Shown here: positions 5,352-59,100 of the stretch, one piece after another
Numbering within the stretch: the first letter of the stretch is position 1
Layout: every line of letters starts with the position of its first letter
Assembly (NCBI GenBank): GCA_020055645.1
Contig: CM034549.1
Span: 19,737,930-19,801,929, forward strand
DNA length: 64,000 nucleotides
Source: Tomocerus qinae
Lineage: Eukaryota > Arthropoda > Collembola > Entomobryomorpha > Tomoceridae
Direction: 5' to 3'
Translations under genes and position numbers: made by a program
Notes under the pieces: model-generated
Databases searched by the model: none
Seen by the model: the letters and a program-made list of their open reading frames with translations, nothing else
Told to the model about the DNA's origin: nothing

Positions 5352-6212
5352 ATGGTTACTTGTACAATAGGTGAGCCACGGGCATGGGTACCAGAGTATT
5401 GGAATGCAGCGTTGATAACTCTTGGAAAACTGGAGATGAACGAAAGGACGAAATTAAAATCCATCATAGAGAAACGGATGATCCGAATGGAAGCTGCTAT
5501 GAAGTATACCCACTGCAGATCATTGCGAAAGCAATTGGCAGAGTTTCCAGAATGGGATGCAGACAAACTCTTCCGAGTTTACGATCTCTTCAAACTATAC
5601 GAGATGGATGGCGATGGTGTCATAGAAGTTGCAGAAATGTAAGAAAATGCTTGAATTAAGGAATTTTACGCATTCTTTTATTTTTATCCAGGAATCAAAA
5701 TTGTTATAACTAATTAAAGCAGATAATGAGATTTTATATGGAAAATTAGTTGACATGATTTACAAGTGTGATGTTTCTTTACGTTATTGGTATATTTAGG
5801 AGTGTTGGAATGGATAATATGGGCGACCATACGGAAGTCGCTGAGAGAGTTCGGATCTTGTGCTTATTCGACGAAGATAAAACTGGCTTCATTGATTATG
5901 AAGAATTCATGAATGTAAGATATTTTCATATTTATATATATTTATTACCCATCTAAATGCAGATAGATACAAGGAATTGGAGTTGCTTCATCTGCAGTTA
6001 ATTCTTAATATGTAATATGTGCATGTAACAGTTAATATAATAAAGCGTTGAAATGAAATAATTCTTGTGCTTTTGTGTAGATCATTTACTCACTGCAAAT
6101 TCAAGACCATAATAAGCACAGCATTGGAAAACACTACCAAAGAGTGGAGAATGATTATGAATTCTTGAAAAGTATGACCTACATTCAAAGATTGTCTATT
6201 GGTGTCCTCTAA
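5352..6212 (+). CDS. Small EF-hand calcium-binding protein
   Basis: Three exons, 5352-5638, 5800-5914 and 6081-6212, join in phase to give 177 residues and a TAA stop. An in-frame TAA lies directly before the ATG, supporting this start, although an alternative 3' splice site at about 5370 would allow an upstream first exon. Two EF-hand loops are visible: residues 84-95 (EMDGDGVIEVAE, with Glu in place of the usual first Asp) and residues 120-131 (DEDKTGFIDYEE, canonical). The N-terminal half is charged and helical (KSIIEKRMIRMEAAMKY) without a third clear loop. The protein has no signal peptide, so it is probably a cytosolic calcium sensor; I cannot name an ortholog. It is convergent with the gustatory receptor gene. 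Confidence 0.8.
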
Positions 6213-6351: not shown

Positions 6352-7896
6352 TTATGCACCAGACGATTCCAGTTGAAACATAAATATCACATACGTTAAA
6401 ATGGTAGCACAAATCTGTAAAGATAGAATATGTATTCAAGTATTTTCCTAAAAATATTTCAACAAGCTAAAATAAATTACACCAAAAAAATAAATAAAAT
6501 TGTAAAATTACTGAAGGTATGAGTTGGTAGTCCACGTTAAAAAGCCCATGTCCAGTAAGGGTAAATTTCCAATTGATAACCCACACTGCTGTTTCGTGGA
6601 GCTGTAAGATTATTTGCTAAAATTAAACTAATTTGTCATTTACGTAGAATGTATAATATAGCTAACTACAACATTACATTATCAACATTTGTAGATTCAT
6701 GTCCATTCTCGATTCGTCTCTGGATTAACAAATCCTCCAAACGGTCCCCTCGAAATTTTATCTGTGTAACGTTAAAAATCATAAAACCAAAGATGGAAAC
6801 AAGATATTTTAGTTTTTTTATGGCCAAGTCTAACCTGTGTCTTCATTCGCTCTCCCAAATGAGAAAAAACCCAGATAAGCAAACTATTTGAAATAGCCAT
6901 CGTTATTTTCGACTCCTGCGAAACGAATTCAGAGAACTGTTGATACTTTTGAGTAATACTAACTATTTGTTGGATAATGAAAGATGTAGCCGAAATCAAA
7001 ATCACGACGATGTAAACTCCTACAATATCCGAGTATAACAAGAAACTTTTTTTCAGTTGCGAAAATCGATGCAAGAAATCTTTTATTTGTAATGTTAAAT
7101 GCGTTTTACTTTCGTCTCCAACTTTCTCAATACTGATAGGAGCCAAATTACTTTTTCTTGTCGAACCTGCCACGACGAAGGATACCCAATTCTTCAAGCT
7201 GATGTCGTGGACTAAATAATTCTCAATTTCATCACATAATCGCTCATAAATATCAAGTAGATTGACTCCAAATACAACTGTGAACGAAAATGCAAACATG
7301 GGAGGAATCATTGAAAAGAAATCGTTTATAACTAATGCGATCCACTTCACCCACTCACCCTCTGGTAGAAATGAATATTTTATATTTTGATCAGTGACAC
7401 TCCTACTTGATATTACGTAGTACGATACAATACGGAGGATATTGTTGTTCATGTGAAATATCCAAGTACACATAAAAACAAGAAGCTGCAAATGCTTTGC
7501 TCTGATCCTTCCACAAAAGTTCTTATTTCTTTTGTTAATGCAATAGTATCTGGATAGGTCATTTAAATATGAAATCAACTGTACTCCTTTCTTACAAGTT
7601 ATTAAAGACCAAAGTCGGATTAAAAAGTCACTACCAAAACAAGTTATCAAGGTAGTATAAATCATGATGCCTCCAGATAGCTTTTTGCCTACCCAAGTCC
7701 ACAAATATTCCAGATTCCCCGTAACAAAGTCAATAATAATGGCAGGATTAAACACTAAGAAGAATATCATATAAACCATTATAGGGTGAACCCATTTCAG
7801 ACGAAAATTTGTCGAACTTATTATGGGACTTGATGATGGAAAACATCCAAAAATCCATCCTAGGAAAATTGTAACGGAAATAAAAAGATCACCCAT
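6352..7896 (-). CDS. Gustatory receptor (insect chemoreceptor superfamily)
   Basis: Four exons, 7896-6835, 6761-6678, 6616-6512 and 6414-6352, join in phase into 437 residues. The long first exon carries most of the predicted membrane segments (for example ISVTIFLGWIFG near the start, then MVYMIFFLVFNPAIII, AFSFTVVFGVNLL and VGVYIVVILISATSFII). The three short C-terminal exons with phase-0 introns are the classic arrangement of arthropod Gr genes. The last exon ends TYVIFMFQLE, a form of the TYhhhhhQF signature in the last membrane segment, with Leu after Gln. Such proteins form ligand-gated cation channels in taste or other sensory neurons with an intracellular N-terminus. The gene looks intact. 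Ligand and subfamily cannot be judged from this. Confidence 0.88.
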
Positions 7897-10800
7897 TTTA
7901 CCTAATCAAAAGAAAATTATATCCCTTTACATTCAATTGAAAAACTCAAAAATCTACTACGTTATAATACTATTGTGTTCATTTAACGAAGTAATTCACT
8001 TGGATGACGAGATAAACTTCGAATATTATTCAGCCAAGAGTAAATGAAGAATGGGTAATAAAAGACACTAATTAGCTTCCGAATTAATTTTTCCGAAACC
8101 AATTTTACCTTTACCTGTCAGAAATCATTATAATACATGGCAATAATAATTCTGTTTGCTATGTAATAGAATCTTCTGTCAAATTGATGTTTATTCTCGC
8201 TATTTCATTGTCGATTTCAATTCAATATTGTATTTTTATTAGTCAATTAAAGAGACACTCTTTTAATACGTCTATCCTAATGTACTCAACTTATGTAATA
8301 GTATAGTTTTGTTACGTAATTAATAAATAATACATAATCCTAATGTAGAAATAAAATGGCAAGTCCCAGAAATGTAAACAAAGGAAATTAAAAATACAGC
8401 CCTTGATCAATATTTACATGCTACTAATTGCTAATTATTATTAGTTGGCTTTTGTAAATTCCCATTATCTAGCTAAGTGTATTATTAACTTAATTACATT
8501 TATTAACCTAAGGATACATATCTGTTTTACTATTTCAGTACATAATGATTATTCTACTTATGTAAAACTTTCTTATGGCAATTCACAAATATACTTTAAT
8601 ATTATAACATTTACATATAACTACGTCATACCTAATACAGATAATGTAACATTATAGATACATTGTATATACAACAACCCTAGAAAGTATTATATATTAT
8701 ATTTAAACAGATACTCACTGAGTGGATCCTAACATTTTGTTAAATGCATATTAAAGTTTCATTAGCTGCATTTAGAGAGTACTGTATCTTACACTTTATA
8801 ACAATTACAATAGCTGACACGAAAAATCTTATTCTCACAACATTTTTGTCTAAATTAATAAGCTATTTTATGCACTGTATTTTACCTACATAGATATACT
8901 ATTTATTTATGTATACACATCGTAGTATTTACTATTCCACAAAATTTGACAATTAGCAAAGATAATTTTTTCGGTATAGCATTAGTATAGTTGTTACATG
9001 ATTATTTCAGTTTATATTAAAGTAATGCAGTATTGTACATGAACATCTACAGTAAGTAGGACAAAAAAAAACGTCTTAGTATTGTAAAACAGTTAAACAA
9101 TTACACTGACAAAAGAGATTCTAAGTCTCCAGCAGTATTTTAATTATTACTTTTAGCTTTTAGTATTTATGTATTCGATTTTATCTTTATATAATCTTGT
9201 TCTTTCAATGTAACTGTATCCTACAATGTCAACATCACCCGCATCCTTTATTTCATAAATGTTCTTAGTCAAACATTTATGTAGTTTACTAATGTAACTA
9301 TGATTCTAATGTTTACCTGAATTTCGTTAAGGTAATAGCATTTGAGAAATCATAGTAAATTGGTGATAATACTAGTCTACACTCGTCACAAATTCTACAT
9401 GTGCTTGTCGAATAAGTTAATTTTCCTACATACGAAACAATGACCATACAAATCTATTATTCTAATAATGCTTCGGAAATTATCAAATTGTACAATACTC
9501 TCGGGTCACTTTGATAAATACAATACTTGTCCTACCGTGCCCTTTCGGATACTACTGTCAATTTTACTACAGATTTACTTATCATACTTATTTATTTGTT
9601 TCAGGTTCCTTATGTAAATCGGTACAGGGTTTCGTTTTGAACATTTTTAAGTTTGGAGACTAATTTGTGGTAATTTGTGACAAAAAAGGGGCAGAAAAAG
9701 TTTAAAATTAAATTCTTGTTCTGAAAAGGTAGAATATACAAGTCAATATAATATTAGCATGTGCATAAAGTGCAAATAACCTATACTCTACACATTCACT
9801 ATACGCAATGCACATACTTGCTATTACCTAACGATGAGTAAGTAAAGCAATAGAATCAACCATGCATGAAATAAATGAACACAATTTGTCAATGATGATT
9901 AATGGATTTGACAACTGAGTATTAAAGTCATTGATTGATTCGCCAAGTAAAAGTACGGAAAGTGGTTTACAAACTTATATGCATGCGTATGTAGTGTTAG
10001 TTGTGTATAAGTACTAACAGCATAGCTGACAATGACATCAGTTTAATCAGACGTCACCGTACAATCAGATGTAAAAGTAAGAAAACACAGTAACTAATTA
10101 TGGATCTGACAGATACATAAACATAACTATTACGCGAGGCATAGCTCAAGACTAGAACTGTTGAGTTATCCATACGGTACTAATTAATAGCGAGAGTACA
10201 AATGCTCTGTATGTAAAGTAGCTAATACAGCTGAATATAAAAGCCTGAGATAACGGAGGTTTACTGTACTGGACTGGATGTATATTTATATGTGTATTGC
10301 CAACAATTATGCAGGAATGTCTTGTACACAGACATGCCTGTATAATAATTATAAGCTAATATAGCTACTATTGCAATTAGTATTGCAGTACTAATCAAGA
10401 GTTGCCATTTGCCATGTAGTGATAGTTGCCCAGTCCAAAAAGTTAATACATTATTAGGTAATCTGCTTGTATTTTGCATTGTGTCAAAAAGTCTGCGTCA
10501 TCGCTTCAGTAAAATAAGCTTCCAGCTAATACGTACAAGTTAACGATTCCCTCTTTGCATTAGCATTTCGTTGAAAGAATATAGAACAAAGATTATGATT
10601 ATGCAATTCTTACGTTATCAATGTTTAAAATCCCTATCTAAATTGTAAGAGAACTTGTGTCAATTATAAAACTCCCACCTAAATATACTACAAATTAATT
10701 TTTGAATGCTCAGTGATGCAATACAAACTCTTTCCAATCATCTTCATTAAATTCCTCACTACTTCTCCTTACTAGTGTAGTAGGTATTTATAATATGAGT

Positions 10801-12820: not shown

Positions 12821-15601
12821 TTAATCTTCATCTTCGCAGAAAGGTGTCCCAGTAGCATAAGCTATTTTGGAGAGCGGCAGTCTTCTTTTCTCAATTCGGA
12901 CGAGGTCGACACATCCGACAAAACCTTGGTGATAACTAGCAGGAACTTCACCAGGCAAAACCGATGCGGCCACACCACCTGTTCATCAAAGCATACAATT
13001 TACTCCTATACAAAGACCATTCACACTCGAGAAAATCAATTTACATAAATAAATTAACGTCCTCGGTAGAGAATAGTTCAGGAATTGAGGCAAATGGAAA
13101 TTGTGCACAAACTTACCAATCCAAAATCGTCCATCAGAGACGAGGACATTACTGCCGACGGGAGCAGTGGCTCTTTGTGGTGTAGAGCCATCCACCTGAA
13201 GAACAATTAATCTCCTTCGTCTTGCAATTAGCACCTGATGCCATCGGCTATCCGTCACTTTCACCTGTGCATTCATCATCAATTATTACTATTATTCTAC
13301 ATATCCATAATCCACTGGCAGAATAAATATGACTGACTGAGTATTCATTCTCCAAGTGTGCAAAATGCATCAATATTGTATTAAGGACTAGCTGAATACA
13401 TGACATGAGGTATAATTATATGCACATTATAGTAAGTGCATAAATAGAAGCTTTAGAACCAGGAAATCTATTAATTCATTTGCAAACAGTCCAAGTGCCG
13501 CTATGTGCAATAATGCAGCTTGCAAAAATGCAAATTTCCTCGCGTGATCAAAACATGTTCGTGTTGATAGATATGTCTGTCCTATCTTCTTTTCAATTAC
13601 ATACAAACATAGCCTCATTATAATAAAAATAACCTTAGTCATGCATGACTAGTAGTCTGTTTACAGTGACATCACTCCAACAGAATCAACAACTCAAAGA
13701 CACTGCTCGGCCATAAAAATATAACAATAAGAAACCTAATAAAACTACTCCGTATTTAGAACACACGAACAATGACCGGCAAAGGCTTCAAGAGAAAATC
13801 ATAATCTATCAACCCACTCACATTTATTATTCCGAGAAGAATCTTACTAGTCTTCCTTATTAACACGACATACCTACGCCTACATAAATTCTATGCATTG
13901 TGGGCAATAATTTACATATTTTTAAGCATTAATATCTTCATTCATATTGTGTAATACACCTCTTGAACATTTTTTTTAGATTATAATGATCAATGAAAAT
14001 TACATCATTTAATCTGCAATCCTATTACTAAATTATTAATTTCGATTTAAGTACTCGTAAAAGATGTAGAGCCCAAGAATATTGCATATTGTAAAATAGT
14101 TATTGCAGTGAAAACTGTGTGTGTAAAATATATTTTTTATAAAAGCTACGATGAAAACCATAATAATCTTATGACTACTTATAAGTTGTAAGAAACTATA
14201 CATTTAATGTAATCTCAAAGAGCAGTGGTATGAATTACTTTTTGGAACATTGCCCTTTCACTATGTTTATGAGTTGTCCGACATAGGAGTGAAATAGTAA
14301 AGTGTTTTTACTTTTTGTATATCTATTACTCTGTTGCAATGCTTGCTTAATGGACCACAAAATGCTTGAAATAACGGAACGCAATAACTCTTTCAAATAA
14401 ATTCAAATGAAACTTGCACTTAAATCTAGAGACAAGATTACTGGTAACATGAATGACCCAAATATGAATAATGGACTAGTTCCTGTACATATCATGCCAG
14501 AATCTAAAATAAATGTAAGTTTTTATTGCTTACGAGGCAGGGATGATAAAAAAGTAATACTTCTCAGTAGACAGGATGATATTATTAGCGTACCTTGGAT
14601 CGGATGATGACAGGTCGTTTATTTTTGGCAGCACCCAAATCAATTCGGAGTTCCGGAAAACCATCGACAATAAACAGACCTAAATAGCCCCTTCGGGATT
14701 GTGAATCCCGATGTGAATTTTTTCCTGTCCAAATGACCACACCAGTTGTCTCACTAGTAGTTCGGAAGACTATCTCGATACGGTTTCGTCGCTGTGCTTT
14801 TACTCTGAATATCAAAATAACAAGAAAAGTTAGTAAAGATCCAAGCATGCAGAAACGAATGTCGGGTCAAATTATGCTAATAAAAATGAAGCAACTAATA
14901 ACATTGTTATATAGTACAAGTTGTTATAATTATTAACAAAATCACCCCATAAAAGCACAGAGAGAACTTTGAAACAAATGTCACAGAAGAGTTAGTGAAA
15001 AGCAATCAAAATTAGTATAGAGTTAGTAAGAGAAGAACCTTTCCACAAAGTCATGCTCAAGCAGAGGGACAAAGTCCTCTTCGTCAACAAAATCTTCGTC
15101 TGGCAAGGAGTCCACGAGACTTCCTTCGTCGTCCTTATCAACTTCCCCTGACTCATCCCCGAACAACTCATCAAGTTGAGAGTCAAAATGTTCATTATAG
15201 AAATCATCATAGTCGGAAAAGTTGAAAGACTCGCTGGAAGTTCATTTGAAGAGGAGGCACAATGACAAACAAATATAGCAACAGCATTAATTAATGAAAT
15301 CGCAATGAGTGGGAGTGAAAAGAGAAACATTAGAGACATTAGTATACGCGCAGACATTATTTTCATCTCATTCAAAAGTATCGTAAGACAGTCACAAGTT
15401 TCATTCTTTCTCATACAATCAGTTCTTAATAATATTAATTTCCGGAACACATTTTCATTATTTTAATTTACGTCATCACTAATGTTAAAGTAAAGCATGT
15501 TATGCGCAAAATAAAAGAATTAACTTACTGTTTGGCAACTTTTCTGGGAAACTTAAGAAAATTCTGCCCATCAAATCTGACTGGTCCGGGAATTTCCTTA
15601 C
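12821..15601 (-). other. Agrin LG domain 3 and stop
   Basis: Exons 15601-15529, 15233-15039 (acidic, see separate entry), 14804-14594, 13264-13117 and 12978-12821. The fold begins [12 protein letters not shown], continues [38 protein letters not shown] and ends [18 protein letters not shown] with a last Cys and EDED before TAA. In vertebrates this domain binds LRP4 and holds the z splice site. Confidence 0.88.
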
Positions 15602-18600
15602 CTACAAAAATGTTACGAAAATACTGGCTAATTTACTGAATTACATACAAATGTTCGTAAAATAAATAAACTTACGACTTTCACAAGATTTTCCCGAGAA
15701 TTGTGGAGGACAAAGACAAACAAAAGACTCAAGTCGAGGGAAACAGGTACCACCGTTATTGCAAGGATGGGATACACTACTTCCACAAGGAGGTCCTTCA
15801 TAACGGTGTACAATTCTTTCCTTGAGAGCACTTGCGATTTCTCTGTAATATGTTTCTCCGTTAACTCGCACATATTGCAGTGCTCCATCAAAAGGAGTTA
15901 AAATACCCAGTTCTCGATGTACCATGTTCATATCCCTTAAGGAATTCGAGAAGATTATTATTAGATACACTCACAATTATTACATCGGTCAATAAGACAA
16001 AAAATTCTTGTGATTACTGTGCTTACCTGATACCACCTATATATAATGGAAGCTCCAAATTCAGTTCAGATAACGTTGGCGGAGATTTTGTTGTTTGTGC
16101 AGGTAAGCCATCAACCTGAAGTTTTCCTTCACGCCCCTCTCTAGAGGCGACAATCCAATGCCATTTATTCAACGAAATAGGCTGTGGCCACCTGGAATTC
16201 ATTTAGTACTGAATTTAATACCTCAATCCAAATATTTGCAGATGAATCTTTTTTAACTAATTTGTTGTGTCATATTATAATGATAAATTATGTAATTTAA
16301 TTGCACGTGCGTAAGTATGTAACTCGAATACTTAGCTGTTATTATGCAACTAAATACAACCTAATGCGTACGCATAATGTTTGAGTAATAATGAGGATTT
16401 TCAAAAAGTACGTAAGATAAATGGAGAAGAAAAGATGTTGGGAATGTAATTACGTGATATTGGCCATTCCAGAACCCAAATCAAAAAGAAATTGAACATG
16501 TCCCCTTGATACAGTAAGACTGATGTAGTCTCCTTTCCCACTCTCTTGTCCATTGTATATAATGAGCCCATTCCGTTCACGGATCATCACCCACAATTCT
16601 ATAGAAACATGTCTCGCTCCATTTTCTATCTTCGGCACTTCTAAATAGGAAAAGCCTCGGAAGTCGAGCATGGCTCCAGTTTCGCCAATAATACTCGTTC
16701 TAGACTCACAATGTCTTCCTGTAATTTCAGACATGAAAAAATGTTAAGCGGAGCTAATTACCAAGAATAGAGAGAAATGGGAGGTTTGGGGAAAGAATTC
16801 GAGGAAGGAAACGAGTTTTTAAACCTGTGTATTCTGGATGGCAAACGCATTTGAAGCCGCTTGAATGGCCTCGATCATTCCAACACAAGCCATGGTTTTG
16901 ACACGGATTTTTTGAGCAAGGATTTCTGTTTGTGGGCTGATTGTTGCTGTTTGAGGACGATTTGGAGAGATCACTGTCATGAATACTGGGATTGGGTGTG
17001 GTTGTTGTGACTGCCAGATGAGTGGGACGAGCCGGGATTTTATCTTTAATCTCTTTCTCTTCGTCCAACTCATAAAGGGTGTACATAGGAGTTGTGCTCA
17101 AACGATGAGACGGACTTATCACAGGACACTGAGAAACTTTATGAAACGAACTAATTAATGGATCTTTCTTCTCCTCAAACTCTATCGGACGACGGCCAAC
17201 TTTCATTTTGTGAATGCATCCGACAAAGCCTTCTGAAGTACCAACAGTTTCCCAGACTCTATATCCATAAAAACAAAAACCCAGATTAAAATAAGCACCA
17301 AACATAAGGTTATTGTAATTCACATTCATAAATAGAATTTTAACAAAGACTCCCTTACTTTGTCGAATTTAATGGTGTAAAACCCATATAACCTCCATGA
17401 TCAAGATTAAGGGATTTCATTGTGCCTGGCGAAGTTCCCTTTACGTCTTCTTCTCCATCAACACGAAGAAGTCCGTCCCGGTTGTACCGTTTCGCCACAA
17501 TATGGTAATTTGATCCTGAGTTCAATCTGCTCGCAGATCTAAGAATTGCTGGCCCATCTCCCAAGTCGAAACGAAATTCCACATATCTTCAAGCCATTAC
17601 GTAGAAAATTAAAACCTCATCCTCCCGTCAACCAAATCCGGAAAATCGACTTTTAAATATAGAAAATAAACATACCCGTCTATCAGGGACAAAGACAGGA
17701 AATCTCCAGATCCATTTCCATGTTGAGAGGAAAACACTAAGATCCCATGAGCGTAATTCATATACGGCGTGATTTCCAATTCCAAACTCAGTTTGTGATA
17801 CCCTGCTATTTTTCCTAACGCTATTGAAGAACGACCAGCGAAAAACGGGAATGGGTATTCTGGAAATGATAGAAACAGGAAACTCTCAATCATTCCCTTT
17901 TCCTCGCCCTTTATATTTACTACAGAACAATCCGAAAGCAATGAAGACTTATTGTGATAGTTGACTGTCCTCGTTTACCTTTTTTCAAACAGGCTTCACT
18001 AGGTGTGGATTTCCCCAGGGGACAGATGCACGAATAAGATCCGTTTCGATGGTCAAAGCACGTTGCTGGAGGTTGACATAATGCACCAGTTTTACTGCAG
18101 CTTAGGACACCAGACAAATGAGAATCTAGAAAGAGGAAATAGAGAAAAAGGTCAATAACCAGTCTCCAAAGATTCCTACTTCTATAAAATTGAATTGGAA
18201 AGAAGGAAATGTCACAAACACACGAGTAAATATCTGCAAGCTAAAGCAGACGGGTAAACTTAATTGCATAGCTAAAATGCAATCAAGCAAACTAACGTAA
18301 AAATCAATGTAAAATTAATTTACATTTCTGTTCCCACGCACATGAAGGGGAAATCATAATTGGCTACACTTACACACATGTAAATGTTCATTTTTATAGG
18401 TTTTATGAATGCGCACCTATTAAATGTATAGCAATTCGGGAAATACAGAAAGACTGTAAATAATAGACTCTCTTTGAATAAACTTATGCTGTCCTTTTGA
18501 AAAACGTGTATAAAATCCTCGGTGCAAAAGTAGCAAGACTATATTGCAGAGTTAAAGCATAGAATTTTTTGCATAAAAACGAGCTCTGGTGATATCATGC

Positions 18601-21600: not shown

Positions 21601-24600
21601 ATACTCTGCCAAAATCAAATATTGAAGCAAATCTTAACCTCTTCTCCCTCACCCACCACACAAGAACACACTTTCTTTATCAACTTCTTATAATATTAGG
21701 AGTAAGTACTTTACCATATAGACATCCCTATCTCTAAACTAAACTTGTTACTATATAATAAGAATACACATCCGAGTCTAACAGAAGTTTGTTGGCTGAC
21801 ATACAAATACATATCTCTACCCTCTATATAGCGTTATTATTATTACTACTTAATAGTTATCACTAGAATATACTGAGAAACAGTTAAGCGTAAAAAAGAA
21901 AGATCTCCGATCAGATCTCACATTGCCCACAGACATAGCAAATGAAATATATTGGCTTGGGGGTCAATAGTTCTTTCTCTTTTTTATCTACGATTTCCTT
22001 TCACCAACAAAAGTTGGTTGAAAACCAATAATCATATAATGGCTCGGGTCGTTTTATGAGTGCCGTTGGGACTCTAACTTCTGTTCCCCTTTTCTAATCG
22101 TCCACTACTGCAAATACCTACTTCATACTATATAATATTTCATATCACCTCCTAAGTGCGTATTAACCTTCTATATAAGAATTACCAATGCATATACAGA
22201 TAAATACTTCCTTTCACTTAACTGCACTAAAACTAGTAATACCTACCATTCCCCATTCACTACTATTTCTACCCCAAAACTATCTTGTTGGATGCAGAGT
22301 AAAAGATGTTTGTCCCTATAGAAGTCTTAGGGCATAACTATAGCCACAACCTTCATAATTCTTTTAAGCAGCAACAGAAAAGAAACTGTGAAATAGCTCT
22401 GACATGACATACCCGAAGTACACCCGTAAGGTCCGAGGAATTCTCCTTCGCCACATGAATCACATTTATGACCCAATACCCCTGGCTTGCACACACAACG
22501 TCCTGTCATTTGCTCACAGTCGTCTCGAACTGACCCGAATTTTGAACATCCGCAAGCTGAAATATTTAAACAATTGCTCTATCAAAATTATCATTTTGTA
22601 TAATTTTCGCAGCCATTATTAATGGAATAGATGCAACAACAAATTGTTTTGAAGTACAATTAGGTAGATTTGATTACAGATAATAAACGATGAGCACACA
22701 ATGGAAATGACAAATCGTAAAGTGTCAGCTTTTTTGTCACGTATTGTCACTTCAAGGTTGTGACTTAAATTGTTTTCTGGGAATAAATAGCTGACATAGG
22801 AAGATAAAGAAAAACTGGGAATGGATTGACTTGCAAAAAATGGTAATACCTATATACAAAACATTGCAGAACTCAAGTGTACTAGATTTAAGTCATACCG
22901 TTTGTGTCTACTTTAAAGTAGCGACAGTTGCAATTCGCAAGGATAATCCGCTATAAAATGACCACATAAACTCTATTGTTTCATAGTGTTATATACTCCT
23001 AAGTTTAGTCCCAGGCGGTGAGCTACATTCGCGAATTATGCTCACGACTCTAGTTTATGGGAAATAAGTAAATTCCGCCGAAATATTGAGAGTCTATTTC
23101 TCAAAGAGTGAGCATATGTGTTAAATGATGTAAGGTGCAGTGGAGCGGCAGAGTGGATTGGAAAGCGGGGAAGTGTGCTCAGAAGAAAATGGTGAAAGCA
23201 AATTGAAATAAATGAGTTGCCGTACGCATGCAGCCTTGATGTCCCTCGATGGCAATTCGGGGAAGTCCCCAAAAGCCAGGCAAACATCGATCACATTTAG
23301 GACCACCGACTCCAGGACGACATTGACATTCTAGAGTGACCGGATCACACGTATCCCCTGCTGAGCCTAATTTGTTACATTGACATACTGAAGGGCATCC
23401 TCCATGCTTCGGTCCTAGAGCGGATGTCACTCCGTCCGGGCAGCAGCCATGAGTTGACTGTTCACACTTTGCAGCTGCTTTCGGTGTCGGTCTTCTCGTT
23501 GTTGATCGCTCTTCATCTGCACGTCAAAAACAGCCTCACTTACTCATTTATTACTCTTCCTCTTACAATAATAACCTAAAACATCATTTTCTTCAACACC
23601 ATCACCCCACTTGTGATTGTGATGCATTTTTAAATTATCAATCATGTCTACATTATTCTTTTATTTTTAATTCTAGTTGCATCATAAGCATTTTTCGTCA
23701 CTTTGAAGATTATTTCCATTTCTGTAGTTTCAATTATTTTTATCCGCTTTTGCCATCATACTGTGTGTCAATACTAACTATTTTCTACAACATTACTTTT
23801 GAAAAAATTATGTTCTTTTTATCAAAGGTTAAATTCTTTCTGAATGGCAATGTGGTCTTTTAGAGGGATTTGAAATACTCTTGTATTGTGACATTCTACA
23901 GCTTTGCCCCAACGTTGTATAGCCCTATGGAAACAGTTTGTTGTGTACATAGGATGAATTTTGAAGCTCTTTTCATTATTGTAGATGGAAAATAGATAGT
24001 GTCCTCCACTCCCTATGATTTCGAAAGAAGCGAATTAAAAAGTCGACAAGATGGAGGGAGATGTACCCGTAATTAAAGATTCAGCTACCCTCGAGGAGGA
24101 GCAAAAAGAACGAATGCTATCAGAATTGATGAGAGCATCAAATATAAACAAGGCAAAAGTGGAGAAAGACAATAATATTGGCAAAAGTGGGGATAGTTGG
24201 AGAACTGATTTACACAAAACCTCATCTCTTCGTTGGTACGGGAAGGTAAATTGCGATGAATTATGCATAAATTACAATAAATAGGTATCCAAGTACAAGG
24301 ATGCATATCTAGATGACATTAAATTGTTCATGTTAATAACAGCTTCCAGAGAATCCAGAGGAGGCGTTGACGTTGCGATACAAAGCTCCAGAGTGGCCGC
24401 ATCAAAAGCCTCTTTGGCATACACTTATTCAAGTTCCAAGATTAACATATTTGATCCTAGATCGAAGTGAGTTGAGTAGTCTCCGTGAACTCGGAAGTAC
24501 ACTTCAGTCTCTCCTCACACTTTCCATCTGCAATTGTGGTTTGAAGAACCTAGATGGTACTTTTGCGTTTCCCAATCTGAGGACGTTAATTGCAGCTGAT

Positions 24601-27600
24601 AACAAATTGACGGACCCGTCGCAATGCTCCTACTTGGAGGAACTTCAGCACTTGGATTTATGTGCGAATCCTATTAGCAGTCATGATGGCTTCCGTCATT
24701 TGTCTCTGTGCACTAAACTTCGTAGTTTGCATTTAAATGGCACACCAATAAGTAAACAAGAGAACTTTCAGAAAACATTGAAAAGTTTCATCCCTCAGCT
24801 GAAAGAGCTTTTTCCTGGTGGCTATCGTGACAACCCACTCAACCCAGACGATGAGACTGCAGATTTAGATGCATTCATTCAGAGGAATAGACTTATAATT
24901 GGGAGTTCCTACGACGAAATGGAAAATTCAAAGGGCAGTGCAGACAAGAAAAAGAAAAGGAAGAACAAAGAGATCGAAACACAAGAGACGAGTTATCAGG
25001 ATGTTCCACCTGAAGGTTCTACTGACACCACTGTTCAAGTACATCTTAAACCCAGCCATTTCCCTTCCAATGTTTCTGAACAGAGTGAGAGTGTAACCAG
25101 TTCCTGGTCAAATGACGCTGTTACTCCTATCTCTGATCTCAATTTGGACAGAACAGACGAGGAAAAGGAATGATTCCTCTATTCATCCTCTTTATCCTTC
25201 ATTTTCTTCACTATTTGTCTTTCAACCAAAGGAAACTTGCTCTATACAAACAGTAATACCAAATCTCAGTGCGTAGTCAGTCATGTGTCTCAGGCCAAGT
25301 TTATATTGATTTGAAATCATATCAGATAACAATAAATACGTAATTTTATGTTACAAACGAATTACATTGTCCCAAAAGTTGATTTTCATTTGAGTACGGT
25401 GCAAATCTTTCCGTAATATTCCTACATTACCTACCTGAAATTATCATAAAAAATTTTCGCCAAAATGCATTTCATTATCAACGGAATATTATCTAACGGA
25501 ATACTATGCAAAAGATGGAATACTTTTCAAGATGCATTGCCCGATACTACAATTCGTTCTGTAAATATGCTTTTTAAACTTCGCCATCTTCTCTTCAGCT
25601 TTTTCAGGCACACATTGACACATCGCACAGACAATTAAACTTTATTGTAATCTGAAGTACAATAATTTTATGGTCCATTGCTAACTCAACTAATGTATTG
25701 TGAGATAATATTAAATATTAAGCATGTAGATCGTCCTTCGGGTTGTTGTGTTTGGCATTTTCAGTTCCTTTCCGTTTTCCCCGATGAGTGAGTCCTCATG
25801 CGATGGAAAACAACTTGTACATTTAGAAATATTTTCTACTACTTAAGGTTTGCCTTTGCCTCAAATTCTTGAAGTCTTTTCGGAAAGAGTACATACGAGT
25901 CCGTGCAGGTAAAGTTACCTTGAACAAAAGCGACCCGTGTAAAAAACTGCTGGGAAATCCTAATAATATTCCCATTCTCATTACACTTTTGGAAATAGAA
26001 GGTAGTAATCATGTTGTGCGAAGGGTTAGATACCAGTAATGGGAAAGAGGGAGACAAAACAGAAGAAACCAACAGTCAGGGAAAGTTTGCCCGTTTAGAT
26101 GTTGAAAGGAGCAATCATAATTCATAGCAAAAAGAAGAGATTTCAGGAAAGTGGTGATTATTAGAGAGAGGGAATGGGACAGTACTGGTAACATTACTTG
26201 TAATACTAAAAATAACATAGTTCCTCTAGACAGTGTTATACTATATACTTTCTCCGGGAGACATAGATAGACAAAATGTTTTTAATGGATATGTTTTCTC
26301 TATCCAGACTCTGGGAACAAGTGACCGTGTTTGAGTTGCGTAAACGCGTGATTCCCTTTCAACTATTTTGTGAGAAAATGTAATTACAACTTTCACGAAG
26401 ATGTAGGTACGGATATTGCTGGTGGGAAGTGGGGACTAGCTGCGTAGAGCAATAACGCATTTTTAGTCTATCTTTATTTCCTAGCATTCTTTTGTCAACT
26501 TTTACTCTGAGTGGAGCCAGTATGATAATACTTTAGCTCTTTAATAAAACTATTTACTATTCTTTAGTGCTACCAAGATACTAGATAGAAGCACTATCTC
26601 GGTTTTTAACACGAGAAAATGACACACGGCAGTAGCAGACTCATAATATTGGTTTTCATTTGTATACAATAGATTTCTCTAATGGAGTAACTGCAGATAA
26701 GTAAATAGTTGTAAAGTATTCTAACAGAATGATTTACATTTTCTGCAGCACTTTGCAAAGGCTGCACTGCGATGACAGAAGCTTCCTACTGGGCAATTAG
26801 TTCTGCTCGGTCCATTTCCACAATTTATGTCTTCGTCAGTTCCGGGGATTCTAAGCGGTTCGTCGCCATTGCAAGGTCTTACTTCAAGTTCTAGTGCAAG
26901 AAAACGAAAAGAAAATGACAGGGATTATAAAGGAAACTAATGAATCACTGAAAATTGTGATGGAAGAAAGTAAACAAGGAATTAGAACGCAATGCTTAAA
27001 AATGCGGGAATATCAAAGCTAGAAAATAAATGATTATGTACCTTCACAAAGTTCCATGGGTCTTGGGCGAAGTTCAGTTTGGCGATGACACGCTTCTCGC
27101 CTCATCTCACATTCAGTAGAGTAGAGTTTCAAATCGGAGGCACAGACTGGATTTCCCGGAGCTGAAGTGCAGTTAAACTGACAGGTGCATCTTGGAAAAC
27201 CATCTTCACCCAACTCACACATTGCCCCGAAGTCGCATCGAATAGATTCACACATTTTCGGACGTGGCGGTGTATATCCTAAAGGGGCTTCTGTTCCAGA
27301 TGCCACGCTGCTGCTTAGAGCTGTTCCAAATCCGCTTAGAGTTCCAGAAGACCCGCCGCCGCCTGCTGTTCCACAAAGTCCAACTTGAGTTTTAGTCGTT
27401 CGAACATAACATACTAGATAACTAACTTGAATGAAGAAGTTGAGAAAAGTATTATTCACAGGAATAAAAGAATGTTAGTAGTACGATATTGACAAACTCA
27501 ACAACAGTCAAACAATGAGGAAGATACTTATCGCCAGCATCAGCACAGAAAGTAGGATAATGAGAAAGATCCCATTAAGATTGCATATTCAACTTGGAAC

Positions 27601-54600: not shown

Positions 54601-56147
54601 GGGAAAATAATGGAGAAGGACGCAAGAAGGGAAATGTCAAAAGACAAACAGACAGAACACAAGAGTCAGAGTCAAGTCAACTCAAGTCATGAGGAATTCA
54701 CTGAGAAGGTTCAGGTCATAAAAGATTCCTTTTCTTTGTTCTGTCTGTCCATCCGCTGCTACCTCTATTCATCCACATCCAAGACCAAGATCAAACTACC
54801 ATCCGAACATTCCACTCTCTCATATCTTTTCTTTTTTTAAATAGACTATCGGTCGAGACATTCGGTTTCCTGTCAGACAGTCTCTTCCTTAGACGTCCCT
54901 TCCACTCCAATAGCTACCCTCAATATCCCTTTTTACGTCTATGTTAATGTGTTACATATTATATCTATCATACACTCTATCCCATTTCCTCTCAAACCCT
55001 AACAGTTCTCCAACACTTATGGATTTACTAGCTACTTACTTATTCTATTAATTTATCATCATCATCATGCAAATCCATTTTATCTATTTATTACGCAAGT
55101 AATATATAAGATATTGTATGATACAGATGATATTGGAATCTAATAATCTATTTTTTAAGATATACCACAAAATATTTCTCTACAACATGATTTTGTAAAT
55201 GCAATCGTAGTTAACACTTGAAGTAGCAATATTTTTTTTAAATACTCGTGGATGCATAATTTCAATTGTTATTGGTAAACACTCTTATTGTGTATTTTTT
55301 GGAAATACCTGAAAGCTATGTGAATGAAAGTTTTATGAATGTGCATGTTGTACACGTCCTAGCGTGCAACGCACATGTAGGTAGACATGCTCTGTTCTGT
55401 AAGTAACGTCGTGCTAAAAACCAGTAGTCAGTAAGTAACTGTAAATGGTGCTACTTATAGTAGACACTATTGTAAGTAGTACTATGCCCTTGAAATGACT
55501 ATAATGCTAAAAGGAGATGATGCGAAAGAAAAGAGAGGAAGTGTAGTATAAAAGGGGTAGATGAAAGTGCATATATATTAAAGGAAGGAAAAGGCAATCA
55601 ATAATTGAATTGAATTCATCGAGTGAAATGTAATGAAATGATGTGAGGAGGAAGTTACCGCATTTGCCGATGTATTTGACGGTGATATTTCTTGCCAAAC
55701 GACAGGCTTGTCGATCCAACTCACATCGATTACGATGATATCGACCATCAGACCCTGTTTCAAAACATAAAACCATTTCATTCAAATAATTACAGATTCC
55801 GAGTGTCTTTTTCCACAGAACAAACATAGTGCATAGGTGATATTATTATTTGAATAGGGTATAGTAAAGTATAGGTAATAAAAGAATATGTAAATACCGC
55901 AGACAGGAACAGAGTCGTCACTGTCTCCGTAGTTGGGACAAGACGCCGGGCATTCACACGTGGCTCGGTGACCATCAGATGAGGGGACACACCTCGATCC
56001 GTAAAGACACGCTTTGTCAGCACATGGGTCGGGCATATCTGCCGGATACAAGTAACAACACGAACTTAGTTCCATTAATTCCCAACAAGTTAGTAAAACG
56101 ATGGTTATTGACAATGCTGCCGAAGCAGCCCGCGGATTTCTATTCAT
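12821..56147 (-). CDS. agrn: Agrin, complete secreted proteoglycan-type gene
   Basis: Thirty-two exons join in phase into 1826 codons. The ATG at 56147 has an in-frame TGA eight codons upstream and starts a signal peptide ([11 protein letters not shown]). Exon ends: 56147-55898, 55754-55659, 48272-48159, 47643-47542, 45312-45193, 45007-44912, 33962-33846, 33410-33315, 31553-31527, 30319-30225, 29859-29733, 28828-28604, 27365-27042, 26890-26738, 23516-23226, 22556-22413, 21448-21324, 21067-20953, 20399-20140, 19397-19262, 18125-17979, 17859-17676, 17586-17359, 17258-16825, 16718-16454, 16191-16027, 15935-15676, 15601-15529, 15233-15039, 14804-14594, 13264-13117, 12978-12821. Kazal, laminin-EGF, Kazal, then EGF/LG order identifies agrin rather than perlecan. 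Agrin is a basement-membrane heparan sulfate proteoglycan that organises synapses in vertebrates; its role in arthropods is poorly known. NtA and SEA domains are not seen. Vertebrate agrin is about 2000 residues. Confidence 0.92.
15039..15233 (-). other. Acidic, frame-neutral exon inside agrin LG3
   Basis: 195 nt, phase 2 to 2, adding 65 residues of which about 26 are Asp or Glu and only two Lys or Arg. It interrupts LG3 after FPRKVAKQ. It contains [12 protein letters not shown], a Ser-Gly flanked by acids as in glycosaminoglycan attachment sites. Skipping it joins the flanking exons with CA plus A (Gln) and restores a normal-length LG strand order. The donor (AAAG then GTTCTT) is weak, which fits optional use. 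Confidence 0.7.
15676..16718 (-). other. Agrin LG domain 2 and EGF-3
   Basis: Exons 16718-16454, 16191-16027 and 15935-15676. The LG fold is seen in [31 protein letters not shown] and [19 protein letters not shown]. At the C-terminal end the usual GC motif reads [12 protein letters not shown], so the disulfide typical of LG1 and LG3 appears absent. EGF-3 ([19 protein letters not shown]) follows on the last exon. Confidence 0.88.
16825..18125 (-). other. Agrin EGF-1, LG domain 1 and EGF-2
   Basis: EGF-1 is on 18125-17979 (six Cys, ending [17 protein letters not shown]). LG1 covers 17859-17676, 17586-17359 and the start of 17258-16825, with the [12 protein letters not shown] motif and closing Cys at VSQCPV. 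The third exon continues through a long Thr/Ser/Asn-rich spacer and EGF-2 (NPCQNHGLC ... [10 protein letters not shown]), finished on the next exon. The donor after EGF-2 (GTTTAA) is weak but the phase fits. Confidence 0.88.
19262..19397 (-). other. Agrin EB-like Cys module
   Basis: One 136-nt exon coding [10 protein letters not shown] ... [15 protein letters not shown]. The closely spaced Cys with the CxCxxGF motif resembles the EB module of nematode and insect extracellular proteins, or a short EGF variant. It sits between the linker and the first true EGF. Confidence 0.6.
20140..20399 (-). other. Agrin Ser/Gly-rich linker exon
   Basis: Eighty-seven residues with no Cys, rich in Ser, Gly, Asp and His. 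It contains [11 protein letters not shown], a Ser-Gly next to acidic residues, a plausible glycosaminoglycan attachment site. It lies where vertebrate agrin carries its Ser/Thr regions around the SEA domain. No SEA fold signature is visible in it. Confidence 0.7.
20953..21448 (-). other. Agrin Kazal module 8
   Basis: Exons 21448-21324 and 21067-20953, split in phase 0 just before [14 protein letters not shown]. It follows the laminin-EGF pair, matching the position of the last Kazal module of vertebrate agrin. Confidence 0.88.
22413..23516 (-). other. Agrin laminin-EGF modules 1 and 2
   Basis: Exons 23516-23226 and 22556-22413. The first has a basic, Thr-rich lead-in ([14 protein letters not shown]), a short [12 protein letters not shown] Cys stretch, then [13 protein letters not shown] ... 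[10 protein letters not shown]. The second has [13 protein letters not shown] ... [11 protein letters not shown]. The eight-Cys laminin-EGF pattern with the C-x-x-C-x-x-G-(F/Y)-(W/L)-G ending is clear. Two such modules before a further Kazal module is diagnostic of agrin. Confidence 0.9.
23517..24050. other. Agrin intron part and LRRC56 5' region
   Basis: AT-rich intron sequence on the left of the nested gene. It should hold the nested gene's promoter, but no clear element is seen. Confidence 0.4.
24051..25173 (+). CDS. LRRC56: LRRC56-like leucine-rich repeat protein
   Basis: Two exons, 24051-24245 and 24343-25173, join in phase 0 into 341 residues. The N-terminal 65 residues are charged. 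Leucine-rich repeats run from about residue 96 to 210, with the LRRC56-type features [33 protein letters not shown] and [15 protein letters not shown]. The tail is polar and has a Lys-rich stretch near residue 265 (KKKKRKNKE). LRRC56 (ODA8 in green algae) is needed to load outer dynein arms onto motile cilia and flagella through intraflagellar transport. The gene is nested antisense in the agrin intron between 26737 and 23517, so it must use its own promoter. An AATAAA lies near 25330. Human LRRC56 is longer, about 540 residues, mostly in the tail. Confidence 0.8.
25174..26737. other. Agrin intron right of the nested gene
   Basis: About 1.6 kb with a candidate AATAAA for the LRRC56-like gene near 25330. 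No other exon or repeat is supported. Confidence 0.4.
26738..26890 (-). other. Agrin lustrin-like Cys module
   Basis: One 153-nt exon, phase 1 to 1, placed between Kazal 7 and the laminin-EGF pair. Its Cys pattern, with [18 protein letters not shown] at the end, resembles the lustrin-type Cys-rich repeat (CP-G-xC ... CC) of extracellular invertebrate proteins. I do not recall this module in vertebrate agrin. Function is unknown; family assignment is by motif only. Confidence 0.6.
27042..33962 (-). other. Agrin Kazal modules 4-7
   Basis: Module 4 (33962-33846 and 33410-33315) follows the same phase-1 split as modules 1-3. Module 5 (30319-30225 and 29859-29733) is split in phase 0 before the PVVCG motif, and its second exon opens with a Ser run coded by a TCA repeat. 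Modules 6 (28828-28604) and 7 (27365-27042) are each on a single exon. Module 6 ends in four Ala (GCT repeat). Module 7 begins with a Gly/Ser-rich stretch of about 35 residues before its first Cys. The exon structure therefore divides the array into groups. Confidence 0.88.
31527..31553 (-). other. 27-nt agrin microexon between Kazal 4 and 5
   Basis: Flanked by a strong 3' splice site (pyrimidine-rich tract then TTTGCAG) and a strong donor (GACG then GTAAGA). It is 27 nt, phase 1 to phase 1, coding about nine residues (LIRDFNRD core). It keeps the frame whether included or skipped: the preceding exon ends TGC A and the following starts AT GGT. Nothing else in the intron between 33314 and 30320 looks like an exon. 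Confidence 0.65.
33963..44911. other. Largest agrin intron (10.9 kb)
   Basis: Separates Kazal modules 3 and 4. No convincing exon, RNA gene or transposase was seen on either strand. Composition is AT-rich with short TA/TAG-rich tracts. Confidence 0.5.
45313..47541. other. Agrin intron between Kazal 2 and 3
   Basis: About 2.2 kb, AT-rich, with no exon or repeat I can support. Confidence 0.4.
49008..49069. repeat. Short direct repeat
   Basis: CTCGATCTGTGTTT occurs at about 49008 and again at about 49056, with a partial third copy (ATGATCTGTGTGTG) between. It may be the edge of an unrecognised element that ends in the AATAAATAAATAAA tract near 49210. Confidence 0.35.
49361..49430. repeat. Dispersed repeat copy, related to 12175-12244
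   Basis: Shares TCATTTTGAAATTCA and flanking AATTAAAC, GTTAAT and TAATGCCTA-like blocks, in the same order, with 12175-12244 inside the 1.5-kb element. It is probably an old fragment of the same transposon family. Confidence 0.5.
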
Positions 56148-59100
56148 AGTGTCTCTCCTTCTTCCAAGTCACACACACTAAAACTTCCGAGATGAGAGCA
56201 AGAAAATAGCACACTACACTTCGATTCTGTCTTTCGCTCTGGCTTTTCTTTTCAACTTGAGCTTACTTAGTCCGTTCTACATACTTCTTTCTCTCCTTTT
56301 TCACCACAGTGGAATTAAAAGACGATTACGACAATTCGATTACATCACTTGGACTAATCTTTCCCGTAATCTTTACCCTTAGCTTTAATTTACTGCTTTA
56401 AGACAATGATGGATTGCTTGGCTGTAAAAAAACTACCTAAATACTAGTAGTACATACCTACGTGTGATATTAAATAGCCTATATACTCATACAGAGTGTG
56501 TTTTCCTAGTAAAATGGGATATATCGACAATTCAGTCTTAGTCATAACCCATTTTTGAGAATAATCGAGTGATAAGCTAATTGCGTAGCACGTACTAGTA
56601 GCCACTCTTAATAATACGCTTGTCTAGATGTCTGCGCTTGAGATGGATGGATTCCTGTTAGAGAGAGAAGGAAATTAATCTGTGACTCGTCTACTTGTTA
56701 GTCTTTTGCCCTAATGGGTTTAATGGGGCTTTCAAAGTTTTGCTGTCTATAATAGGTACCTCTTTATATTGGCTAATGATAAGTATCCAATTATCTTTCT
56801 ATTGCTCCACTTAAGTCTGATAGTTCTTCTAATCTTCTAATTACACTAATTTTCTACAAAGTGAAATTTACAAGGATTATTGATGTCTTTCCCTCCTCCA
56901 TGTCTAAACACTACCTATATTTCCCCTAATCCTTCCGTAGTAATTGATAACCCATCCTCCTCCTATTTGTATCTATTATGTATATAGTAGCAATAGGAGG
57001 TGACCAACAAGTGTTAGACGAAATAAATAATGTATGTTTATCGACAAACTGTAAAATAGTATATTTTTAGTAGGTATAATGTGCAGTGTCTCTACTAAAG
57101 AACGTAGGATGACTGTTTCTGTATAAACTAGCTGTATGTAAAGTAGGGTAGGGATGTTTAGAAAAGCACGTGCTTGTGCAATGCCCAGCAATCCAATGGG
57201 ACCGGGTGAAAAATCCGTTGCCTGAAAGCAGTAAAGTTATTATTGTGAAAAGTAGGAAAGTGTAGCTAGCGTGAGGCTGAGACTCCTGACAAGACGCAAT
57301 TCACAGAGCTGAGTAAGAAAATTCAAATAGGTCCTACCTACCTATGTATGTATGAATGAAAAAGGATAAAGAATGTAGCAGGTGGAATAGAGTGTCTTCA
57401 CAAGGTAGGTGAGAGTAAAAAATTCGCCGAATTGGAGAGAGGCAAGGAGTGGTGTTCGCTAACTAGGTGATCTAAATGAGAAAGCTGAGATTGTTTGTAA
57501 GTAGTGTAGCGTGGGCTTCTTGGACAGAATTGAGTGGACTAGGTTAAGGAGCGTTCCGAAGGAATAGAATCAGAATTGAGAATGGTTGATGGTTGGAATC
57601 TGGGCTGGCGTGGCAGGCGGGTAGGCAATGAGAGAAGCACCAAGTAGAGAACAGAATAGACTAGTATAATAGTAGTATGTAGTAGTCTCTGGGAAGAAGA
57701 CGAAGAAGGAAGGAGCGAAGGCTAAGCTGCACATAGTAGTAGTAGTAGCTCAGAACAGAATTTTCTGAGTGTTGAAAACATTAGAACTGTTAAAAGCAAC
57801 ACGCTTGCCTACTCTTCTTCTTCTTTCTGTTATGCACCAGTAGGTACAACTATAATATAACCTTTCTCCCTACTACTCTACTAATATCTTAGGATGCTGG
57901 GAACAGAACCACCACTAATACATAGTTCACTAGACTTGACTACATAATACACACAAAAGACACTATATAATCTCCTCCTGCTACTATCCATGTCTGTTTT
58001 CTGTGTACCACTCTATACCATGCATGGGTGTGTGACTTTGTTGGCGGAGTTACACAAGGCAAGAGAAAGCAACGGGTCTTTTCATCTTCTGTGTTCTCTT
58101 CACTTTCTGTCCTGTCTCATGCTTAACTACACTACATTATTACTACCTAGTACCTCAACCTATTACCATTATACTCCTGAATTTGTTACTTGCCTTCAAC
58201 CGGCACTTCCTAACGAGACACACTACACTCCTTAATGCACACTGTACTAGGTACACCACATACAGAAATAATACATACATACAAGCAGAATAATATCCAC
58301 TACAACATACACACAGTTATTCCTGAAATATTCATCCTCCGCTGTCTACAAACCTTTCCCTGGCAATAACTACTTACTTACTTTCATTCTACTTAAGGTT
58401 AACTCAACTGAACCCTTTCTCTCCCAAATTAATACTGGCTACTTACTCCTCATTCTTTCCAACAAAAACACTAACTCCTCAAAAATGTCATCGTCCCCTT
58501 TGTCTTCACTACCCCAAAAAGCCCAAATACGTGCATACATACTAATAAACTATTTACCAGTCCAGCTCTAATTTTCTCTATGTACATATCAGTCTCATGC
58601 ATCAACTTATAATACTCTACCACGTACAAACTCTCAGCATCACAGATTTCAGTCTTATTTCCATTTGCATATTTGTTCAAAGGTCGACATGTGCTTCCTA
58701 GCTAGACTTTCACATACCTAACGACAATGCAATCCTAACGGAAAACGCATGCAGGAATTTACCAACTTTAATTAATTTCACTGTTGGGGAACTTGCCGCA
58801 AAATTAGAAAAAGACGCATAAATTATTTTCACTTTCTCTCAGTTTCTACTACTACCAACTTTCTTCTACCGGAAACAATGATGATGATGATGTTAATAGT
58901 GAAGAGCATGATAATCGAGTTGGGCAAAACTTTTTTTACCTCTCAACTCTACTCATATGTGAAAACTTTACTATAATATCCTGCCTCCGAGAAACTGCAA
59001 ATGTGACCTAAAAACTAATCGGGTATTTTCATTGGGAAACAGATAAACATCTGCATACTCCCTCTGAAATTTCAATTAAACATTCGAGAAATATTTACCT

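Follow-up and report, generated by a model that had tools for sequence, protein, structure and literature searches.

In vertebrates, splicing at the z site of agrin decides whether the protein can build a neuromuscular synapse. The z exons have been called chordate-specific after checks in nematode and sea urchin (PMC12445529, in the portion drawn on here; the words "arthropod", "insect" and "Drosophila" are absent from its text), and the C. elegans study, as far as the excerpted sections go, found no z exon and took the y and z sites to be peculiar to vertebrates (PMC1939731). In the excerpts of a comparison of invertebrate agrins, Apis and Tribolium included, the z motif is given as missing, a statement that concerns the motif; the same excerpts describe invertebrate agrin architectures as varying, and practically nothing as known about invertebrate agrin function (PMC2874008). 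Dystroglycan and LRRTM bind neurexin LNS domains only when these lack splice inserts (PMC4183798, in part), and honeybee neurexin I has 12 alternative-splicing sites, mostly in LNS regions (PMC2570956, in part), so that LG-domain splicing as such exists in insects. Among the literature matches listed, which comprised titles and starts of abstracts from outside subscription journals and genome annotations, no exon at the z site of an arthropod agrin was reported; an annotated isoform with such an exon, unremarked, may well exist.

We analysed a 64,000-nt stretch of the genome of the collembolan Tomocerus qinae (the window), whose minus strand carries the 3' part of an agrin gene. Eighteen exons were modelled between 23516 and 12821 from splice signals and reading frame; joined, with exon 15 included, they form one frame that is free of stops until a TAA at 12823..12821. 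Pfam found two laminin-EGF, one Kazal and two EGF domains in the modelled protein, and laminin-G in the LG2 and LG3 stretches, while LG1 was placed by alignment alone; the Kazal, laminin-EGF, EGF and three LG domains stand in agrin order. Six more Kazal places lie upstream of the modelled exons, out to about 56 kb, and three of these were pieced together visually. Compared with solved structures, the last LG domain matched full-length agrin best (8s9p, phmmer E = 4.5e–40) and neurexin-1-alpha next (E = 1.5e–29), both being whole-chain E values that add up several domains. No NtA or SEA domain was seen among the stretches submitted to Pfam, which covered parts of the window. Searches for relatives of LG3 gave 5 pattern stretches in viral contigs and 51 in prokaryote genome contigs, none confirmed, in collections that are uninformative on animals; a tRNA search found none.

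Several other features share the window. A leucine-rich-repeat protein (24340-25173, plus strand; a 277-aa open stretch with Pfam LRR_4) seems to sit within an intron of agrin. A Cys-rich stretch (26724-26924, minus strand), situated between agrin's Kazal exons and its laminin-EGF exons, weakly resembles Lustrin_cystein, at 23.8 bits, below the cut-off of 27, and with a query that had one residue not in the window; we know of no Lustrin_cystein-like domain in vertebrate agrin. At 55510-56168 (minus strand), a Met with a signal-peptide-like start leads straight into the first Kazal domain, with no NtA domain seen in that stretch, an arrangement that could represent either an alternative first exon or the start of an agrin without NtA. 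Further downstream on the minus strand, at 6775-7905, a 377-aa open stretch without Pfam match is membrane-protein-like, perhaps of gustatory-receptor type.

LG3 is encoded by the last exons of the model. Exon 14 (15529..15601; this and the following features are all on the minus strand) runs from the LG3 start as far as the codon that is split at the z site, ending in FPRKVAKQ with the donor ACA/GTAAGT (the slash marks the junction), and exon 16 (14594..14804) continues downstream of the z site with VKAQRRNR, both exons resting on alignment and model; exon 17 (13117..13264), which contains a basic ARRRRL stretch, and exon 18 (12821..12978), with the LG3 end and the TAA, rest on the model. Between exons 14 and 16, flanked by intron 14 (15234..15528, 295 nt) and intron 15 (14805..15038, 234 nt), lies exon 15 (15039..15233), which a sequence-only reading had described as a 195-nt exon of phase 2 to 2 placed after FPRKVAKQ in LG3, a description that our model reproduces. 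Its borders are cttccag on the acceptor side and gttcttct on the donor side, with the junction codons AAA CA/C ... GAA AG/A GTA, so that it sits between FPRKVAKQ and VKAQRR and the split codon reads CAA (Q) when the exon is skipped and CAC (H) when it is included. The same reading had held that removal leaves the frame intact and a standard LG domain, and indeed both forms translate uninterrupted to the TAA; the Pfam Laminin_G_1 match on LG3, which begins past the insertion point, has E = 9.1e–22 without exon 15 and 2e–21 with it. The insert (HESFNF...DFVE(R)) has 26 Asp and Glu in 64 whole codons (40.6%), close to the 40 percent previously estimated; elsewhere in the modelled chain, windows of 64 residues reach at most 21.9%. 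It has a single Ser-Gly and a single NFS sequon, eight Phe, no Cys, and two Tyr, which have 3 and 5 acidic residues no more than five positions away. No second copy of the exon was detected in the window, the remaining tblastn matches having E = 1.2 and 5.8. The latter, a chance-level match at 5813-5911 (plus strand), is an EF-hand-like stretch (DEDKTGFIDYEEF) that probably belongs to another gene.

An open frame of this size might arise by chance in an intron, and such an origin would fit the lack of any Pfam match to exon 15 itself, its weak donor and the better unused GT sites close by. Controls drawn from introns point the other way. Of 4359 ways to place 195 nt, in a given frame, within the other 15 introns, 32 were free of stops, and the most acidic of these reached 7.8% Asp plus Glu, against 40.6% in exon 15. 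AG..GT pairs exactly 195 nt apart number 226 on the minus strand and 218 on the plus strand of the window; 8 and 3 of these, respectively, are open, and exon 15 alone is at least 35% acidic. The codon log-odds of exon 15 in the gene frame is 0.285, a value matched by 0 of 625 intron windows (mean –0.276, maximum 0.093); an alternative frame of exon 15 is also stop-free and scores –0.154. Synonymous choice taken alone gives 0.077, where the coding mean is 0.062, and 0.4% of 3000 simulations under intron usage attained the exon 15 value. The G+C fraction is 0.441 in exon 15 and 0.330 in introns. Since exon 15 surpasses the intron controls in its length, its frame, its composition and its codon usage alike, it is very probably a real coding exon; the chance frame, rejected on these controls together with the synonymous codon choice, is a remote prospect.

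The place of the exon was compared with vertebrate agrin by phmmer. The skip form aligns with chicken LG3 without insert (1q56) gaplessly from residue 11 past the junction, with 10 identities in the first 33 residues and query Q28/V29 opposite Ser/Glu of the chicken chain. In human agrin 8s9p, V29 stands opposite residue 1908, just past the 19-residue insert 1889-1907 (ELANEIPV...), which carries the B/z motif named in the excerpted part of PMC2874008. Judged by these alignments, exon 15 coincides, to the residue, with the vertebrate B/z site, and the earlier suggestion of an insert independent of those at the vertebrate y and z sites thus fails as to position. The vertebrate y-site place, KSRK of human LG2 in the alignment, falls inside exon 12 (16027..16191, an LG2 stretch placed by alignment and model), where there is no intron. 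When the insert was kept in the query, phmmer laid its end against human z19; the domain score was 76.7 bits with the insert and 75.3 bits without, a difference that we rejected as evidence of homology.

Sharing this site in LG3, exon 15 could be a chordate-type z exon, that is, a neuron-specific insert that binds LRP4, of which arthropods have homologues (PMC8006230, in part). We searched the insert and exon 14 for NxI, NxV and NxF and found none of them, chicken NAV standing opposite RKV, and on this ground we rejected a chordate-type LRP4 motif in exon 15 as likely. The exon is also no microexon: z exons of that size have 5 to 11 codons, a range in which 195 nt does not fall. In the 234 nt of the intron that follows, YCAY occurs twice, less often than the rate in the window would give, against 18 occurrences in Ciona (PMC12445529, in part). 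Taken together these points make a chordate-type z exon highly improbable.

The splice sites of the exon bear on whether it is optional or always used. The exon 15 donor, AAG/GTTCTT, is the second weakest of the 17 in the gene model, and three unused GT sites (15472, 15348 and 14946) within the same 724-nt interval between exons 14 and 16 outscore it; the acceptor is the second best in that interval by a matrix from the gene's 17 other acceptors. These matrices are rough, with 16 to 17 sites each. Weak donors are frequent in optional exons. In this gene the weakest donor (CAG/GTTTAA) belongs to exon 10, whose loss would break the frame, so donor weakness does not by itself prove skipping. Candidate Nova-type and Rbfox-type splicing-factor sites are possible weak clues: intron 14 has four YCAY in 25 nt at 15318-15294 (minus strand), 64-85 nt upstream of the exon 15 acceptor, and intron 15 has one TGCATG at 14851 (minus strand), downstream of the exon, where 0.08 are expected in 234 nt. 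The minus strand of the window holds 6 such four-YCAY clusters, giving an expectation of 0.05 per 529 nt, and 2 of 2000 shuffles had one; these motifs were picked from knowledge of neuronal splicing and the cluster size was set after the sites had been seen. The upstream cluster is the sole one nearby, none lying downstream of exon 15.

It could be that the exon is real but constitutive, in which case agrin of this lineage would have no splicing switch here and every copy of the protein would bear a long, acidic z loop. Splicing could use both junctions without a shift of frame, the excerpted part of PMC6966886 portrays the z loop as flexible and accepting of inserts, and DNA alone cannot separate optional from constitutive use. 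The skip form is nonetheless a complete LG3, without gaps against chicken LG3 across the junction, and the exon has that second-weakest donor. Constitutive use is, on this evidence, unlikely though a serious alternative, and exon 15 is most likely optional.

The rest of LG3 has a charge that is not seen in its vertebrate counterparts. Past the z site, LG3 has a net charge of +15 (27 Lys and Arg, 12 Asp and Glu), against –1 in chicken, +2 in rat and –1 in human, and the sixteen residues around the z site have +7, against +1 in chicken; LG1 and LG2 have –1 and –2. With exon 15, whole LG3 passes from +15 in the skip form to –9 in the include form. The Ca2+-binding residues of chicken LG3 are Asp1820 and Asp1889 (PMC6966886, in part), and their positions here hold Gly and Val in LG3 and Asp and Asn in LG1 and LG2, with the positions placed by counting and the first adjoining a five-residue gap where the alignment is less sure. 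LG3 of this agrin thus looks like a charge-driven rather than a Ca2+-driven binder. Agrin has been grouped with LG proteins of basic surface (PMC4183798, in part). Since LG3 here is strongly basic, unlike that of chicken, rat and human, the earlier idea that the insert adds an acidic surface gains support.

We tentatively propose that an optional acidic z loop gates the access of glycans or a receptor to a basic LG3. Skipping of exon 15 would give a complete, strongly basic LG domain, and inclusion would add a probably flexible acidic loop of 65 residues between the basic flanks RKVAK and VKAQRRNR, turning LG3 net acidic. The loop could then fold back on the basic face of LG3, or repel ligands from that face, and so control electrostatically whether LG3 binds a receptor, heparan sulfate or another sulfated glycan. 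With eight Phe and two Tyr, the insert may also bind a protein partner and not just mask charge.

Rules are known for the attachment of glycosaminoglycan chains, sulfate on tyrosine and N-glycans, among them a preference for Ser-Gly flanked by acidic residues. The gate might perhaps be strengthened by a glycosaminoglycan chain on the Ser-Gly or by sulfate on the two tyrosines. The Ser-Gly noticed in the sequence-only reading does stand out, with 7 acidic residues among its 14 neighbours, where the other nine Ser-Gly sites of the modelled chain have at most 2; it fits the acidic-flank rule and is a candidate attachment site. As agrin is a proteoglycan (PMC2874008, in part), the exon could even serve mainly as a chain carrier, a reading that we regard as improbable: it leans on a modification rule, and one Ser-Gly in a 65-residue insert leaves most of the insert unexplained.

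Returning to the optional acidic gate, we advance, more tentatively still, the wider view that the agrin z intron is a splicing switch outside chordates too, filled here, in a protostome, with a large acidic cassette as an on/off gate that would be independent of the LRP4 NxI/V motif. If that is true, the site at which splicing is regulated would be ancient or a product of convergence, with chordate specificity confined to what the intron contains. An arthropod z-site exon would make the z intron a reusable place for altering LG3 binding, and exon 15 would give invertebrate agrin a concrete, testable isoform difference.

Among known systems, a mechanical likeness is offered by heparin cofactor II, in which an acidic, Tyr-containing segment is held on the protein body and freed by glycosaminoglycan binding, the acidic extension being N-terminal and sulfated on tyrosine (PMC3601010, in part). 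It differs in being an unrelated serpin whose segment is terminal, not internal, and involves no splicing choice. Neurexin inserts SS2 and SS4 occupy a loop position that differs from the agrin z loop. They are likewise splice inserts in LG/LNS domains and block ligands such as dystroglycan, but in another protein, and the excerpted sections describe no reversal of domain charge (PMC4183798). The Z microexons of Ciona and amphioxus, like exon 15, occupy the z intron of an agrin from outside the vertebrates; they are microexons with NxF or NxI (6 and 5 residues in Ciona), whereas exon 15 is large and acidic, and Ciona has YCAY clusters in the following intron where exon 15 has 2 YCAY after it and a small cluster before it (PMC12445529, in part). 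The vertebrate z exons (z8, z11 and z19; the chicken B site), whose splicing is demonstrated while exon 15 is known here from DNA, encode inserts of 8 to 19 residues with the NxI/V motif for LRP4, in contrast to 65 acidic residues without it, and yet they are alike in protein, LG domain, residue position and the keeping of the frame.
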